The translations under genes were made by a program, and so were the position numbers. Below are positions 20,076 to 34,501 of a stretch of DNA of 64,000 nucleotides, in pieces. The stretch is from contig CP048485.1 in the NCBI GenBank assembly GCA_025560025.1, positions 1,674,001-1,738,000 on the forward strand, written 5' to 3'. Source of the DNA: Agrobacterium tumefaciens. Its GTDB lineage: Bacteria > Pseudomonadota > Alphaproteobacteria > Rhizobiales > Rhizobiaceae. The notes beneath the pieces were generated by a model. The model ran no database searches. It had not been told where the DNA came from and worked only from the letters and a program-made list of their open reading frames with translations. Positions within the stretch are counted from its first letter, which is position 1, and each line of letters starts with the position of its first letter.

Positions 20076-20648
20076 TTACATCCCCTGCGAGCCACGGTTC
20101 ATCGCGGCAATACCCGTGCGGCAGATCTCGATCAGGCCGAGCGGCTTGATGATGGCGACGAACTGGTCGATCTTCGACGACTTGCCGGTGATCTCGAAGA
20201 TGAAATGCTCAACGGTCGCATCCACCACCTTGGCCTGAAACGCATCGGCAAGGCGCAGCGCTTCGGCGCGAACTTCACCTGTGCCAGCCACCTTGATGAG
20301 CGCCACTTCGCGCTCGATCGGCCGTTCCTGCCCGAGTTCACGGGCGCGAACGGTGAGATCGAGAACGCGATGCACCGGAACGATGCGTTCCAGCTGCGCC
20401 TTGATCTGCTCGAGCACGATCGGCGTGCCGCGCGTGACGATGGTGATGCGCGACAGATGCGCCTCATGTTCCGTTTCCGAAACGGTCAGGCTTTCAATGT
20501 TGTAGCCACGGCCGGAAAACAGGCCGATGACCCGGGCAAGCACGCCCGGCTCGTTGCTGACGAGAACCGACAGCGTGTGATTTTCGACGGCAGCCGTTTC
20601 CTTCTGGATGAAATAGGCGGAGCCGGTGGGTTGTAGGTGTGCGTTCAT
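20076..20648 (-). CDS. ilvH: Acetolactate synthase small (regulatory) subunit
   Basis: A 190-residue regulatory subunit with the N-terminal ACT domain (HTLSVLVSNEPGVLARVIGLFSGRGYNIESL split over about residues 22-52) that binds valine for feedback inhibition, and a C-terminal domain contacting the large subunit. It lies 19 bases downstream of ilvB in one operon that ends at a strong terminator. Confidence 0.97.
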   Translation of the reverse strand: MNAHLQPTGSAYFIQKETAAVENHTLSVLVSNEPGVLARVIGLFSGRGYNIESLTVSETEHEAHLSRITIVTRGTPIVLEQIKAQLERIVPVHRVLDLTVRARELGQERPIEREVALIKVAGTGEVRAEALRLADAFQAKVVDATVEHFIFEITGKSSKIDQFVAIIKPLGLIEICRTGIAAMNRGSQGM

Positions 20649-20667: not shown

Positions 20668-22461
20668 TCAGACTAGCTGACGGCCCTTGGCGTCGATGGC
20701 GTTGGCAACAGCTTCATCCGTCGCCTCATCCGGCAACAGCATCTCGTTGTGAGCCTTACCAGACGGGATCATCGGGAAGCAATTGGCAAGATTGGCAACA
20801 CGGCAATCGAAGATGACCGGCCGGTTGACCGCGATCATTTCTGCAATCTTGTCGTCCAGCTCCTTCGGATCGTCGCAATACATGCCGACCGCGCCATAGG
20901 CTTCCGCCAGCTTGACGAAATCAGGCATGGCTTCGGTATAGGAGTTGGACAGGCGGTTGCCGTGCAGCAATTGCTGCCACTGCCGCACCATGCCCATATA
21001 CTGGTTGTTGAGGATGAAAATCTTCACCGGCAGACCATACTGGATGGCGCAGGACATTTCCTGGATGCACATCTGGATCGAGGCATCGCCGGCAATGTCG
21101 ATAACCAGTGCTTCCGGATGCGCAACCTGGACGCCGATGGCCGCCGGCAGGCCGTAACCCATGGTGCCAAGACCGCCCGAGGTCATCCAGTGGTTCGGCT
21201 CCTCGAAGCCGAAGAACTGCGCCGCCCACATCTGGTGCTGGCCGACTTCGGTGGTGATGTAGGTGTCGCGTCCCTTCGACGCCTCATAAAGCCGCTGCAG
21301 GGCATATTGCGGCATGATGACATCATTGGAGTTCTTGTAAGCGAAGGAATTGCGGGCGCGCCAGCGCTCGATCTGCGCCCACCAGTCGGCTGTCTGCGAT
21401 TTTTCCGGCTTCTTCGGCAAGGCGCGCCACAGGCGGACCATATCCTCCAGAACGTGGCCGACATCGCCGATGACAGGCACGTCAACGCGAACCGTCTTGT
21501 TGATCGACGACGGATCGATGTCGATGTGGATTTTCTTGGAATTCGGCGAAAACGCGTTGATGCGACCGGTAATTCGGTCATCGAAACGCGCACCGATGCA
21601 GACCATGACGTCGCAATCATGCATCGTCATGTTGGCCTCGTAGGAGCCATGCATGCCCAGCATGCCGAGCCAGTTCTTGCCGGAAGCCGGATAGGCGCCG
21701 AGACCCATCAGTGTCGAGGTGATCGGGAAACCCGTCAGCTCAACCAGCTCACGCAGCAGCCGGGTCGCTTCCGGGCCGGAATTGATGACGCCGCCGCCGG
21801 TATAGAAGATCGGCTTCTTTGCCTTCGACATCAGTTCGATGGCCGCGTGAATGGCATTGAGATCGCCCTGGACCTTCGGCTTGTAGCTCTTCTGCTGAAT
21901 GGCGGCGGAAGGCGGTGTGTAGGTGCCGGTGGCGAACTGGATGTCCTTCGGAATATCGACAACGACGGGACCGGGACGGCCCGTCTGCGCGATGCGGAAG
22001 GCCTCATGGATGATGCCTGCCAGCTCGTTGACGTCCTTGACCAGCCAGTTGTGCTTGGTGCAGGGGCGCGTGATGCCAACAGTGTCGCATTCCTGAAATG
22101 CATCCGAGCCGATCAGCGATGTCGGAACCTGGCCGGACAGGCAGACGAGCGGAATGGAATCCATCAGCGCATCCTGCAGCGGGGTCACCGCATTGGTGGC
22201 GCCGGGACCGGACGTGACGAGCATGACGCCGACCTTGCCGGTGGAGCGGGCATAACCTTCGGCCGCATGGCCGGCGCCCTGCTCATGGCGCACGAGAATG
22301 TGCTGAATGTCTTCCTGCTGGAAAATCTCGTCGTAGATCGGAAGTACGGCGCCGCCGGGATAACCGAAGATATGCTCGACGCCATTGTCCTTCAGCGCCT
22401 GCAGAACGATCTCCGCACCTGTCATGCGATTGCTGTTTTCCGTATTGTCCTTATCCGTCAT
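20668..22461 (-). CDS. ilvB: Acetolactate synthase large (catalytic) subunit
   Basis: A 597-residue thiamine-diphosphate enzyme that condenses pyruvate with pyruvate or 2-oxobutyrate, the first common step of branched-chain amino acid synthesis. It shows the catalytic Glu in VRHEQGAGHAAEGYAR, the FAD-region block LGMHGSYEANM, and the ThDP/Mg motif GDASIQMCIQEM...NNQYMGMV. The start MTDKDNTENSN at 22461 is preferred; an upstream extension to 22524 would run into the terminator hairpin of the leader. Transcription is governed by the attenuator 60-180 bases upstream. Confidence 0.97.
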   Translation of the reverse strand: MTDKDNTENSNRMTGAEIVLQALKDNGVEHIFGYPGGAVLPIYDEIFQQEDIQHILVRHEQGAGHAAEGYARSTGKVGVMLVTSGPGATNAVTPLQDALMDSIPLVCLSGQVPTSLIGSDAFQECDTVGITRPCTKHNWLVKDVNELAGIIHEAFRIAQTGRPGPVVVDIPKDIQFATGTYTPPSAAIQQKSYKPKVQGDLNAIHAAIELMSKAKKPIFYTGGGVINSGPEATRLLRELVELTGFPITSTLMGLGAYPASGKNWLGMLGMHGSYEANMTMHDCDVMVCIGARFDDRITGRINAFSPNSKKIHIDIDPSSINKTVRVDVPVIGDVGHVLEDMVRLWRALPKKPEKSQTADWWAQIERWRARNSFAYKNSNDVIMPQYALQRLYEASKGRDTYITTEVGQHQMWAAQFFGFEEPNHWMTSGGLGTMGYGLPAAIGVQVAHPEALVIDIAGDASIQMCIQEMSCAIQYGLPVKIFILNNQYMGMVRQWQQLLHGNRLSNSYTEAMPDFVKLAEAYGAVGMYCDDPKELDDKIAEMIAVNRPVIFDCRVANLANCFPMIPSGKAHNEMLLPDEATDEAVANAIDAKGRQLV

Positions 22462-22523
22462 TGCCTGTTTCCATCCCGCTTTGGCTTTGGATATCGAGGA
22501 GCCCGAGGGCCTGTTTGAAGACA

Positions 22524-22601
22524 TAAAAAAAGGCCCCTTAAGGAGCCTCGTTCAGCGCATGGGTGCTTTCGCCGGATGGTTACACCATCCTGCCCATGCG
22601 C
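22524..22601 (-). promoter_or_regulatory. Transcription attenuator of ilvBH
   Basis: Reading on the minus strand, a long hairpin GCGCATGGG...CCCATGCGC (22555-22601, with the inner stem GGATGG/CCATCC) is followed by the terminator AGGCTCC-TTAA-GGGGCCT and seven Ts (22524-22548). The leader peptide stop codon falls in the loop of the inner hairpin, so a stalled or a freely moving ribosome would change which structure forms. I could not define an antiterminator pairing by eye. The remaining upstream bases to 22843 hold the ilvBH and HerA-gene promoters. Confidence 0.85.
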
Positions 22602-22636
22602 CGTCCCACCACGATAAGTACGTTAAGATTTTTCAT
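22580..22636 (-). CDS. ilvBH leader peptide
   Basis: An 18-codon reading frame, MKNLNVLIVVGRRMGRMV, ends inside the attenuator hairpin. Residues 4-10 (LNVLIVV) include two Leu, three Val and one Ile, the three end products controlled by this operon. Codons at this run would stall the ribosome when charged branched-chain tRNAs are scarce and favour read-through into ilvBH. The peptide itself is presumably discarded. Confidence 0.85.
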   Translation of the reverse strand: MKNLNVLIVVGRRMGRMV

Positions 22637-22843
22637 GGGCCGGAGTGTTAGCCAGAAATGCGCCAGCCGTCAACGCATATTGCAGGAAAAAATCGGAGTC
22701 GCCTTCTTTTATTGCCGGAAAGGGCGCTTCCACGAAATTTTCGAACACAGCTGATACACCGGTTGTTAAGTATAATCGTTTAATATTGAAAACGCAGATG
22801 CTGCCCGAACCACCGCGATCATCCGCATGTACCGGGATAAGAC

Positions 22844-24856
22844 GTGAGTAACGACGAGTTTCATAAGGCGTCCCGTATGGACGACAACGAACGGCGGTCC
22901 GGCCAGCAGCCGGCTAACCGCATGCTGGGCCGCGTCATCGCCTGTGATGGCGCCCATGCGACCATTGCCGCCGAAACCGAGATCGGCTCAACCGATGTCG
23001 CCCAGCTCTGGTCCGTCGGCCGCCTGATTTCCATCGAAATGGGAACGAGCCGGGTAGCAGCGCTGGTATATGCCATGCGCACCGGCGAAGATTCTTGGTC
23101 ATCGGACAAGCCGAACAGGCTGTTGATCGACGTGGAACTCGTGGGCGAAGTCTATCGCACCGAGGACGGCAGCGAACGCTTTTCCTCCGGCATTTCCCGT
23201 TACCCCTATCTGGGCGCAGTGGCGCATCGCATCCGCACCGGCGACCTTGCCAAGATCTATGACGGCGGCAAGCGTGACAGCTGCGTCATCGGCAAGCTGA
23301 CGCAGGACGACACGATCGGCGCGGCCATCAACATCCCGCAAATGCTGGCCAAACATTTCGCCGTCGTCGGATCAACGGGTGTGGGAAAGACCACGGCGGT
23401 TACCCTGCTGTTGAACAAGGCGATCGAGACGGACCCCAAGCTGCGCGTCCTCATTCTCGATCCGCACAATGAATTTGCGGCCGCTTTTCCCGATCATTCG
23501 GTTGTTATTGACACCGATACGCTCGACCTTCCCTTCTGGCTGATGCGGCTCGAGGAATTCGCAGAAGTGATTTTCCGCGGCCGCAAGCCAGTTCCGGAAG
23601 AGATGGATGTTCTGCGCGAGATCATTCCGGAAGCGAAAAAGGCATTTCGCGGCACAGATGGCTCCGCCGTGCGCCGCACAACGGACAAGAGCGCGATCAC
23701 GCCGGATACGCCGGTTCCTTACCGCATGGCCGACCTCCTGGCCCTTGTCGACGAGCGTATCGGACGGCTGGAAGGGCGCGGGGAAAAACCGGTATTGCGT
23801 TCCCTGAAGGGTCGCATCCTCTCGGCCATCAACGACACGCGCTATAATTTCATGTTCTCCAGCAATACGATCAGCGATAATATTCTGGAAACGGTGGCGC
23901 ATATCTTCCGTATTCCCGGAGAAGGCAGGCCGATTTCGGTTTTCCAGCTGTCCGGCATCCCCTCCGAGGTGGTGAACTCGGTGGTTTCCGTCCTCTGCCG
24001 CATGTCCTTCGAGCTCGCAGTATTGGCGCGCGGTTCGCTGCATATGCTGGTGGTTTGCGAAGAAGCGCACCGTTATGTTCCGGCAGACCCCGAGCGTGGC
24101 TTTTTCCCCACCCGTCAATCAATCGCCCAGATCGCCAAGGAAGGCCGTAAATACGGCATCTCACTCGGCGTCATCAGCCAGCGGCCGAGCGAACTCGACC
24201 AGACCATCCTGTCTCAGTGCTCGACCGTTTTCGCCATGCGGCTGTCGAACGAGATCGACCAGAAGATCATTCTGTCCGCCGTACCGAATGCATCGACCTC
24301 AACCACCAGCTTTTTGTCGTCCATCGGCAATGGCGAGGCCATCGCCTTTGGCGAAGCGGTGGGTGTGCCAATGCGCATGCGCTTCGACCGCGTTCCCATG
24401 GCCAAATTGCCGAAGGCAAGCGGCGCGGTCAGCCATACGCCCCATGAAACGCCCGATACGGTCGACCTGAACAGCATCGTCACCCGCATGCGCGCCACGG
24501 CCAAACCGGTCATCACCGGTTTTCAGCAAAGTGTCGAGGCAGCCTTTTCCGATCCGCCGGAGTCCATTGCCGGCCTCAAAGAAACGGACGACATGGATCG
24601 CTGGAAACGCGAATTGGGGACGGCTGCAACGGAAGGCTACGAGCCTTATCGTCCGGACATGCTGCCTGGACGAGCGCCGTCAGCACCGCAAGATCCGCCG
24701 ACAGGGGCCGATACCGCCTCCGACGCCGTTAACGACCTGCGCAGGGCCGGTTTCCAGATGCAGACGCAGAATGGCCCGCCTCCCGGCGATACTCGCCCGT
24801 CGCTGAGGGAAAGCCTGCTGAAGAAGCCGCTCGGCAGCCTCTACCGCAAGGATTGA
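22844..24856 (+). CDS. HerA-like ATP-binding protein (DUF87)
   Basis: A 670-residue P-loop ATPase of the HerA/FtsK superfamily. An N-terminal HAS-barrel-like region (residues about 25-150) is followed by Walker A GSTGVGKTTAV near residue 177, Walker B MLVVCEEAHRYV near 402, and the SQRPSELDQTILSQC arginine/glutamine motif near 445. The C-terminal 130 residues are low-complexity and Pro-rich. The start is GTG with GGGA upstream; an ATG at residue 12 is possible. HerA proteins form hexameric DNA translocases with nuclease partners, but no NurA or Sir2 gene is adjacent. Confidence 0.87.
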   Translation: MSNDEFHKASRMDDNERRSGQQPANRMLGRVIACDGAHATIAAETEIGSTDVAQLWSVGRLISIEMGTSRVAALVYAMRTGEDSWSSDKPNRLLIDVELVGEVYRTEDGSERFSSGISRYPYLGAVAHRIRTGDLAKIYDGGKRDSCVIGKLTQDDTIGAAINIPQMLAKHFAVVGSTGVGKTTAVTLLLNKAIETDPKLRVLILDPHNEFAAAFPDHSVVIDTDTLDLPFWLMRLEEFAEVIFRGRKPVPEEMDVLREIIPEAKKAFRGTDGSAVRRTTDKSAITPDTPVPYRMADLLALVDERIGRLEGRGEKPVLRSLKGRILSAINDTRYNFMFSSNTISDNILETVAHIFRIPGEGRPISVFQLSGIPSEVVNSVVSVLCRMSFELAVLARGSLHMLVVCEEAHRYVPADPERGFFPTRQSIAQIAKEGRKYGISLGVISQRPSELDQTILSQCSTVFAMRLSNEIDQKIILSAVPNASTSTTSFLSSIGNGEAIAFGEAVGVPMRMRFDRVPMAKLPKASGAVSHTPHETPDTVDLNSIVTRMRATAKPVITGFQQSVEAAFSDPPESIAGLKETDDMDRWKRELGTAATEGYEPYRPDMLPGRAPSAPQDPPTGADTASDAVNDLRRAGFQMQTQNGPPPGDTRPSLRESLLKKPLGSLYRKD

Positions 24857-33757: not shown

Positions 33758-33935
33758 GTCCACTCCTTCGTGTGTCCCCGGCCCGGTGTTGCTTCTGGTG
33801 ACCGGTTGCATGGAGAATGTGTCAGCAATCTCCCGTCGTCAAGAATAGTCTAAATTGCCGGGGCCAAACACGAAACCTTTTCATGGAATTGTCATCGCCC
33901 CCCTTTTCTCGGGGACGGGAAACGCCTATATGAGC

Positions 33936-34270
33936 CTTGCCGGGGCAACCCGGCTATGGCGATAAACGGTCGGTGTAATAAACCTATTGGACCCGGGGGC
34001 GGTACCCGGCGCCTCCACCAAAAACCGGCGGGCTTTGCAAGATCGAGGCCGGCTTTTGATGGGGGCGAAATAGGATCGACAAGGGCGTAAAGATCGAACT
34101 TTTGCTCGGCATGATACCGCCGTTATCGGGTCACAAGTGTAGTTGCAAACGACAACAACGCTAAGGAATACGCTCTCGCTGCCTAATGGCGGTGCGGGAA
34201 TTCCGCTCTAAGTCCTCACGGTTAGCCCCGTGAGGCGGGGTTCGGAGGTACCTGGCAACAGAAACCTCCA
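33936..34270 (+). ncRNA. ssrA: Two-piece (permuted) tmRNA
   Basis: The gene has the circularly permuted alphaproteobacterial order. The upstream acceptor piece ends at 34020 with the T-arm GGACCCGGGGGCGGTACCCGG and GCGCCTCCACCA. After a spacer, the coding piece starts near 34061 with GGGGGCGAAATAGGATCGAC, whose first seven bases pair with the acceptor stem. The tag frame at 34145-34186 reads ANDNNAKEYALAA-stop, resumed at a GCA codon. A later hairpin near 34213-34258 fits a pseudoknot. The outer ends are estimates. The tmRNA rescues stalled ribosomes and marks products for ClpXP. Confidence 0.95.
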
Positions 34271-34501
34271 CCTTCTCCATTTTGCCTGAATTGGTTATAT
34301 GATAGCTGACTTGTGATCGGCATCGGCTTTTCCGTTGCTGCCGTTCAGGACATTGCGTATACTTGGGCAACGCGTAGCCGTCAGGATCGAAATTGATCCT
34401 GGCTCAAGGATTACGCAAAAATTCAAAGTGTTACAGCGTCCCTGGCGTGCATGACGCGCCGTGCATTAAAAGACGTTCGAATAAGGGAAAGACAGGACCG
34501 C

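Follow-up and report, generated by a model that had tools for sequence, protein, structure and literature searches.

The short stretch immediately upstream of ilvB in the 64,000-nucleotide segment of Agrobacterium tumefaciens DNA analyzed here (referred to as the window) very probably acts as a ribosome-mediated transcription attenuator of ilvBH. This assignment is supported by runs of Val, Ile, and Leu (V/I/L) codons in a short upstream open reading frame (uORF), a covarying hairpin, a pronounced codon bias within the runs, and a defined spacing between these codons and the stem, all of which are conserved in relatives. The array of uORF, hairpin, terminator, ilvB, and ilvH lies on the minus strand throughout and is composed of the following features (window coordinates).

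22668..22673, minus strand: predicted -35 element, TTGACG, based on the TTGAC spacing in Rhizobiaceae leaders
22645..22650, minus strand: predicted -10 element, TAACAC, with a 17-nt spacer and its end 8 nt before the ATG
22580..22636, minus strand: leader peptide uORF MKNLNVLIVVGRRMGRMV, 18 codons plus TAA, on a probably leaderless mRNA (sequence and relatives)
22607..22618, minus strand: control codons Leu7-Ile8-Val9-Val10 (CTT ATC GTG GTG) (sequence; codon bias in relatives)
22553..22603, minus strand: leader (pause) hairpin and inner hairpin, with the uORF stop codon at the inner loop (fold and covariation)
22525..22549, minus strand: predicted intrinsic terminator with an 8-bp stem (22549-22530) and seven Ts (22531-22525) (fold and aligned relatives)
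22515..22634, minus strand: match to Rfam family RF02502, Atu_C8 (121.2 bits, E 2.6e-26)
20668..22524, minus strand: ilvB (ilvI), acetolactate synthase large subunit, with a likely start at 22461 (NF006581, Pfam)
20076..20648, minus strand: ilvH, acetolactate synthase small subunit (NF008864; ALS_ss_C and ACT domains)

An earlier, sequence-only reading of this region had described an 18-codon V/L/I-rich frame that ends inside a hairpin and is followed by a terminator with seven Ts upstream of ilvB, without stating the strand. The frame is present as quoted, extending from ATG 22636-22634 to TAA 22582-22580; its stop codon falls within the hairpin at 22603-22553, and the terminator and its T tract occupy the predicted place. 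The identity of the controlled gene was likewise borne out, as the ilvB product matches the NCBIfam model NF006581 (acetolactate synthase 3 large subunit) with 1227.7 bits against a cut-off of 974 and contains three TPP-enzyme Pfam domains, while the ilvH product matches NF008864 with 220.5 bits against a cut-off of 119. The ilvB frame opens at 22524, directly after the terminator Ts; translation more probably begins at 22461, because the homologous region starts no earlier than residue 26 in 30 of 48 alignments, and residue 26 is also where the NCBIfam equivalog match starts.

The 117-nt leader RNA has a predicted folding energy of -49.9 kcal/mol (z score of -4.28), which was equalled by none of 200 shuffles. 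Its match to RF02502 is full length (model positions 1 to 122), exceeds the gathering threshold of 50 bits, and is the single match at an E value of ≤0.001 in the whole genome (5.68 Mb, 4 contigs). A generic scan of positions 22000 to 23200 returned one terminator-like site, against 1.2 expected, and no consensus sigma-70 promoter; the terminator and promoter assignments consequently rest on comparison with relatives. Elsewhere in the window, a gene for a HerA-like ATPase (22844-24856), whose best NCBIfam models are anti-phage-associated HerA proteins at scores far below their cut-offs, is located divergently on the plus strand, and a permuted alphaproteobacterial tmRNA gene is present at 33900-34272 (RF01849, 304.8 bits).

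Matches to RF02502 were detected in 240 of 247 genomes drawn from the Rhizobiaceae (234 above the family cut-off), and in 161 of 297 drawn from the order (49 above the cut-off). The class sample of 289 genomes gave 6 matches, of which 2 exceed the cut-off and 2 come from the window's order, the window's own genome among them; none of 14 control genomes yielded a match. A set of 132 leaders spread over genera and families, which by selection all resemble the Rfam model, was examined further. The gene directly downstream was ilvB in 128 cases and a major facilitator superfamily (MFS) gene in 4. The leader peptides comprise 13 to 20 codons, and every one contains a V/I/L run of at least three residues, with a run of at least four in 123. 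As the rule used to pick the uORF rewards V/I/L residues, the same rule was applied to 2,640 dinucleotide shuffles, 1,119 of which gave no ORF; runs of at least three and at least four occurred in 5.0% and 0.9%, respectively. Valine accounts for 415 of the 829 V/I/L residues (50.1%) in the 132 leaders, 4 of which are MFS leaders.

Codon choice within the runs departs markedly from that of 27 long ORFs of the window, a reference which represents the window only and not the genome of each leader. The valine codons GTA, GTG, GTC, and GTT make up 52.4, 34.9, 5.8, and 6.9% of those in the runs, compared to 3.6, 30.7, 42.9, and 22.8% in the long ORFs, while Leu CTG falls from 43.5% to 1.8% and Ile ATT rises from 21.7% to 67.3%. 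Such a bias would fit slow or tRNA-specific decoding, to which an RNA-level constraint could also contribute.

Loss of the frame or of its Leu/Ile/Val codons in close relatives, which the sequence-only reading had held to speak against its model, was seen in none of the 132 leaders examined, and erosion was encountered in two genomes outside this set. Seven Rhizobiaceae genomes, 1.2 to 2.0 Mb in size, lack a match to RF02502. Two of these (G369 and G385) have no ilvB match, one (G339) retains ilvB only as a 30-residue scrap, one (G164) has an ilvB interrupted by stops, and one (G301) has only a 28%-identical relative, while G458 and G516 possess an intact ilvB of approximately 70% identity. 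Inspection by eye of the eroded leaders of the latter two (L227 and L228) still shows a TTGACG box and a stem resembling a terminator; LIV is retained in a candidate uORF of G458, and no clear uORF was recognized in G516, which has MLCIGWGV at the hairpin. Both genomes (1.6 Mb) are genus-mates of G164; leader decay is seen here alongside pathway decay. Four genomes of 1.0 to 1.5 Mb from another genus have kept both ilvB and the leader. Duplication was also observed: L036 and L037 precede two ilvB genes lying approximately 2.6 kb apart on one strand with ilvH between them, each with its own leader, and G023 carries a second ilvB preceded by a leader of its own (L031; MKIAMVLAVVIGRMGRMV), ilvH not being found in the sequence stretch around it.

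Covariation of the hairpins, which the sequence-only reading had proposed as a check, was assessed in an alignment of 127 leaders (5 of the 132 were omitted, mostly near-duplicates), and the leader hairpin passed. Overall, 96.0% of 2,030 cells form standard pairs, compared to 87.7% after shuffling, and the covariation score is 0.356, compared to 0.203 (standard deviation, 0.006) in shuffled alignments, none of 500 of which scored as high, and 0.057 to 0.123 in slid ones. In the leader stem, seven of the nine pairs exhibit changes on both sides and 97.5% of cells are paired across the 127 sequences, while in the terminator helix 94.0% of aligned cells are paired and variation is mostly one-sided. 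The number of pairs with changes on both sides (nine) does not by itself decide for covariation, being reached by 12 of 500 shuffles and by slides of -3, -2, and -1 (9, 12, and 10 pairs, respectively). The terminator often contains one U-G wobble whose place is lineage dependent (GGCUCC or GGUCCC versus GGGGCC), and in several leaders its 3' arm has changed to GGAGCC with the 5' arm unaltered; the 5' arm is possibly kept because it also pairs elsewhere.

The position of the control codons relative to the stem is similarly constrained. In 107 of the 132 leaders, 5 nt separate the end of the last V/I/L codon from a GCGC-like stem base; the first stem pair obtained by folding lies 0 to 5 nt after that codon. 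At least two of the three stop codon bases are single stranded inside the hairpin in 117 leaders.

Transcription and translation of the leader probably begin at the same place in Rhizobiaceae, as judged from promoter spacing. All 75 Rhizobiaceae leaders (73 upstream of ilvB and 2 upstream of MFS genes) carry TTGAC 35 to 38 nt upstream of the uORF start. A -10 hexamer, picked as the best match among spacers of 16 to 19 nt, ends 6 to 8 nt before the start codon in 72 of them and has T at position 1 in 74 and A at position 2 in 73; the commonest arrangement, a 17-nt spacer and 8 nt to the start, is found in 38. A Shine-Dalgarno core is present in 2 of the 75 and missing from the other 73. Among the 57 remaining leaders, 29 contain a Shine-Dalgarno core and 37 carry TTGAC within 60 nt (at 53 to 60 nt in 23, 35 to 38 nt in 13, and 21 nt in 1). 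The 13 leaders with short spacing, which include the MFS leaders L013 and L014, indicate that the leaderless arrangement also extends beyond the Rhizobiaceae. Two initiation modes seem to serve the same attenuator, and the uORF is probably leaderless in Rhizobiaceae. Leaderless starts are documented in Sinorhizobium meliloti, for which 171 have been mapped according to a passage of PMC3616915, and where the trpL attenuator is described as leaderless in a portion of PMC10117765.

In the proposed mechanism, RNA polymerase would start at, or a few nucleotides from, the uORF AUG, and the first ribosome would load on the leaderless 5' end. When charged Val, Leu, and Ile tRNAs are plentiful, this ribosome would proceed to the stop codon inside the leader hairpin, whereupon the terminator would form and transcription would end, releasing an RNA of approximately 110 nt (the Rfam "sRNA" Atu_C8). 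When these charged tRNAs are scarce, it would stall at the Leu-Ile-Val-Val codons. With the base of the lower leader stem 5 nt beyond the last Val codon, the leading edge of the stalled ribosome would reach that stem, and a larger number of polymerases would be expected to continue into ilvB and ilvH.

The weakest step in this scheme, and its main gap, is how stalling prevents formation of the terminator. Attenuation is usually explained by a stalled ribosome that leaves the 3' arm of the first hairpin free to capture the 5' arm of the terminator. Stalling was modeled by masking 12, 15, or 18 nt beginning at the first position of the final V/I/L codon, and the terminator was still predicted in 131 of 132 leaders and, for the window's leader, at every register tried; without a ribosome, it fell below 0.5 in 3 of 132. 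Duplexes between the freed stretch and the terminator 5' arm were weaker than those of shuffles (mean z score of +0.70, with values below zero in 30 of 132 leaders), in a test for which the terminator arm was automatically misassigned in at least 11 of the 132. A profile of 8-nt windows gave its best mean, -4.58 kcal/mol, at -50; this site was rejected as an antiterminator partner, as in the window's leader it corresponds to the 5' arm of the leader hairpin, which the stalled ribosome would largely mask. A pairing scan of all alignment columns recovered the leader stem, the inner hairpin, and the terminator as its best helices; no helix joining the leader hairpin to the terminator arm was among the 25 listed, and a single column pair, 92:123, connects the two. 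A strong conserved antiterminator was, therefore, not found by masked folding, duplex energy, the 8-nt profile, or the all-columns scan across the 132 leaders. The architecture of ribosome-mediated attenuation put forward in the sequence-only reading stands with respect to the uORF, the covarying hairpin, and the terminator; a strong, mutually exclusive antiterminator was not found by these searches.

A short candidate helix was recognized, AGCC/GGCU, formed by columns 91 to 95 with 121 to 124, in which GGCU belongs to the terminator 5' arm. This helix was picked after the alignment had been viewed, a choice which favors it in the following comparisons. It pairs in 74.1% of 444 cells, compared to 69.7% in shuffled alignments (none of 500 as high) and 11.4 to 44.8% in slid ones, and its covariation score is 0.174, compared to 0.132 shuffled and 0.006 to 0.108 slid. 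Its pair counts and pair types are not clearly above those of shuffles (71 and 245 of 500, respectively), and its four pairs are unpaired in 42, 38, 8, and 27 of 127 leaders, with 58 gaps at the third. Of the 73 Rhizobiaceae leaders with GGCU in this arm, 34 contain an exact AGCC, as do 3 of 18 others, and the window's leader has only AGC/GCU, placing the candidate helix at 3 to 4 bp. These data lend modest support to a possible short antiterminator, which would be far weaker than the terminator.

The same observations bear on a scheme that dispenses with an antiterminator, in which the leader hairpin, staying folded beside the terminator when the ribosome stalls upstream, would itself hinder the terminator, and a ribosome at the stop codon in its loop would melt that hairpin. 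Such a scheme would accommodate the persistence of the terminator under modeled stalling, the lack of complementarity beyond shuffles between the freed stretch and the terminator arm, the location of the stop codon in the hairpin, and the short spacer between hairpin and terminator in the alignment. Against it, a ribosome stalled on the last Val codon would itself mask the lower stem, and we know of no precedent for attenuation of this kind; furthermore, the support for AGCC/GGCU (pairing in 74.1% of cells against 11 to 45% when slid, and covariation of 0.174 against 0.132 when shuffled) lowered its standing from unlikely to distinctly unlikely.

Two further explanations would place the function of the element elsewhere. 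The RNA could chiefly be a trans-acting sRNA similar to rnTrpL of S. meliloti, in which case attenuation would be incidental or would be one role beside another. In favor of this are the Rfam classification of RF02502 ("Gene; sRNA"), the stable fold predicted for the terminated RNA, and the example of rnTrpL, which, according to a section of PMC10117765, is a leaderless, attenuator-derived, dual-function sRNA. A free sRNA need not, however, remain directly before ilvB or an MFS gene, as all 132 copies do (128 and 4, respectively), nor need it keep V/I/L codons with a rare-codon bias, and we consider this explanation unlikely. It is highly improbable that the element represents a constitutive leaky terminator preceded by an incidental ORF, with ilvBH regulated by a protein elsewhere; while the unexceptional terminator in the generic scan would agree with that account, the V/I/L runs in 132 of 132 leaders compared to 5% in shuffles, the codon-to-stem spacing, and the covarying stem all argue against it. 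Ribosome-mediated attenuation is thus retained as the preferred interpretation.

The same cassette also precedes MFS genes, as in L013, L014, L032, and L033 of the 132 leaders and in the plasmid copies L051 to L054 (4 of 15 plasmid records, with one of the genes, on pRetKim5c, annotated "MFS transporter"). The best NCBIfam model for the MFS proteins is TIGR00710 (Bcr/CflA efflux), with scores above the cut-off in two of the four tested and below it in the other two, and, among solved structures, 2gfp ("Multidrug resistance protein D"; EmrD) gives the best sequence match. A profile search of genome contigs with an alignment of seven MFS proteins returned 146 relatives, and among the best 80 of these loci the leader profile was detected upstream of the MFS gene in 67 (E < 1e-3), of which L140, L169, and L219 appear to repeat L033, L032, and L013, respectively. 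The leader ends approximately 30 to 170 nt before the MFS match in the 66 loci tallied. RF02502 itself was recovered at the place of the leader in 15 of 20 MFS loci tried, the exceptions being L184, L196, L197, L200, and L213, the last a Paraburkholderia fungorum locus with a weak leader profile match (E 6e-4) and the peptide MNATFIIVLGSRRMVR. Of the 13 loci without a leader profile match, 5 are actinobacterial and 6 betaproteobacterial; the other two are L204, on a contig that begins at the MFS match, and L215, an alphaproteobacterial metagenome-assembled genome in which MKFVVVVAGDRRMDR, a hairpin, and a terminator are discernible by eye.

Hosts of the MFS leader include Rhizobium, Mesorhizobium, Phyllobacterium, Devosia, Pelagibacterium, Roseibium, and others; copies also occur on plasmids and in another order, and the one strong RF02502 match outside the order (G640) is likewise located before an MFS gene. 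No such leader is present in the upstream sequence read for the nearest MFS relative in the window's genome (39% identity). In the 63 of the 67 MFS leaders to which a uORF could be assigned, valine represents 278 of 423 V/I/L residues (65.7%), 58 leaders have TTGAC 35 to 37 nt upstream, and 1 has a Shine-Dalgarno core. In G127, the MFS leader, MMIAIDMVVVGRRMGTAA, seems closer to Rhizobiaceae leaders than the ilvB leader of that genome, MRAGNILVVGRRIAT (L034), is to them, which suggests horizontal transfer.

Judged from the leader alone, the MFS gene would be induced by a shortage of branched-chain amino acids or of valine, and since the MFS copies are richer in valine, the transporter would answer a shortage of valyl-tRNA. 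We tentatively suggest that the cassette may constitute a portable branched-chain sensor, leaderless and with at most a short antiterminator, which controls both acetolactate synthase and a Bcr/CflA-type MFS transporter; the substrate of the latter, which would be induced by valyl-tRNA shortage, may be a branched-chain amino acid or else a precursor or inhibitor of the pathway. An Rfam "sRNA" can be assigned a likely function, attenuation of the first branched-chain amino acid gene, in 240 of 247 Rhizobiaceae genomes, and an orphan transporter family a likely physiological address, namely, induction upon starvation for valine or branched-chain amino acids. Because the antiterminator is weak and natural variants number in the hundreds, a textbook assumption can be tested directly in this system.

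The attenuators of enteric ilvB, ilvGMEDA, and leu combine a Val/Leu/Ile-rich leader peptide, a hairpin, and a terminator with a described antiterminator and a Shine-Dalgarno start, whereas the window's leader has only a short candidate antiterminator and no Shine-Dalgarno sequence was found in it. The attenuation reading is well supported and not new in kind, as alphaproteobacterial ilvB leaders were predicted in 2004. An alphaproteobacterial ilvB leader peptide, likewise situated before ilvB, is mentioned as previously described (Vitreschak 2004) in a passage of PMC1273637. The element, for which the sequence-only reading was aware of no experimental study, is supported as an attenuator; it already constitutes an Rfam family, and an ilvB leader peptide had been described. 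The new points are the probable leaderless start, the weakly explained switching step, and the transporter branch; for a leader before MFS transporters, no description was found in the open-access literature, and one may exist elsewhere.

The window's element matches RF02502 over its full length. Rfam treats the family as an sRNA gene; here it is interpreted as an attenuator leader of ilvB that includes a uORF and a promoter and has a branch at MFS genes. According to part of PMC3738593, the Wilms 2012 sequencing of A. tumefaciens C58 used names like C3 and Ti2, and the label "Atu_C8" probably originates from that C58 sequencing study; in PMC5913331, the portion concerned is just a list of Rfam accessions. 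In Caulobacter crescentus, tandem codons for Ile and Val, together with a terminator, are likewise found ahead of the acetolactate synthase genes in the ilvBN/ilvIH leader, which a passage of PMC4117421 regards as an attenuator, citing Tarleton 1994. That leader may be too divergent to match RF02502, given the rarity of the family outside the order (6 of 289 class genomes, 2 of them in the window's order). The term "ilv" is absent from the main text of the S. meliloti ribosome profiling paper (PMC10117765) by term search. The trpL/rnTrpL system of S. meliloti, as presented in a part of that paper, likewise features a leaderless uORF that opens the transcript and an attenuator RNA released as an sRNA; it differs in its known trans function and in its Trp codons and target trpE, in place of which the present leader has V/I/L codons and ilvB.
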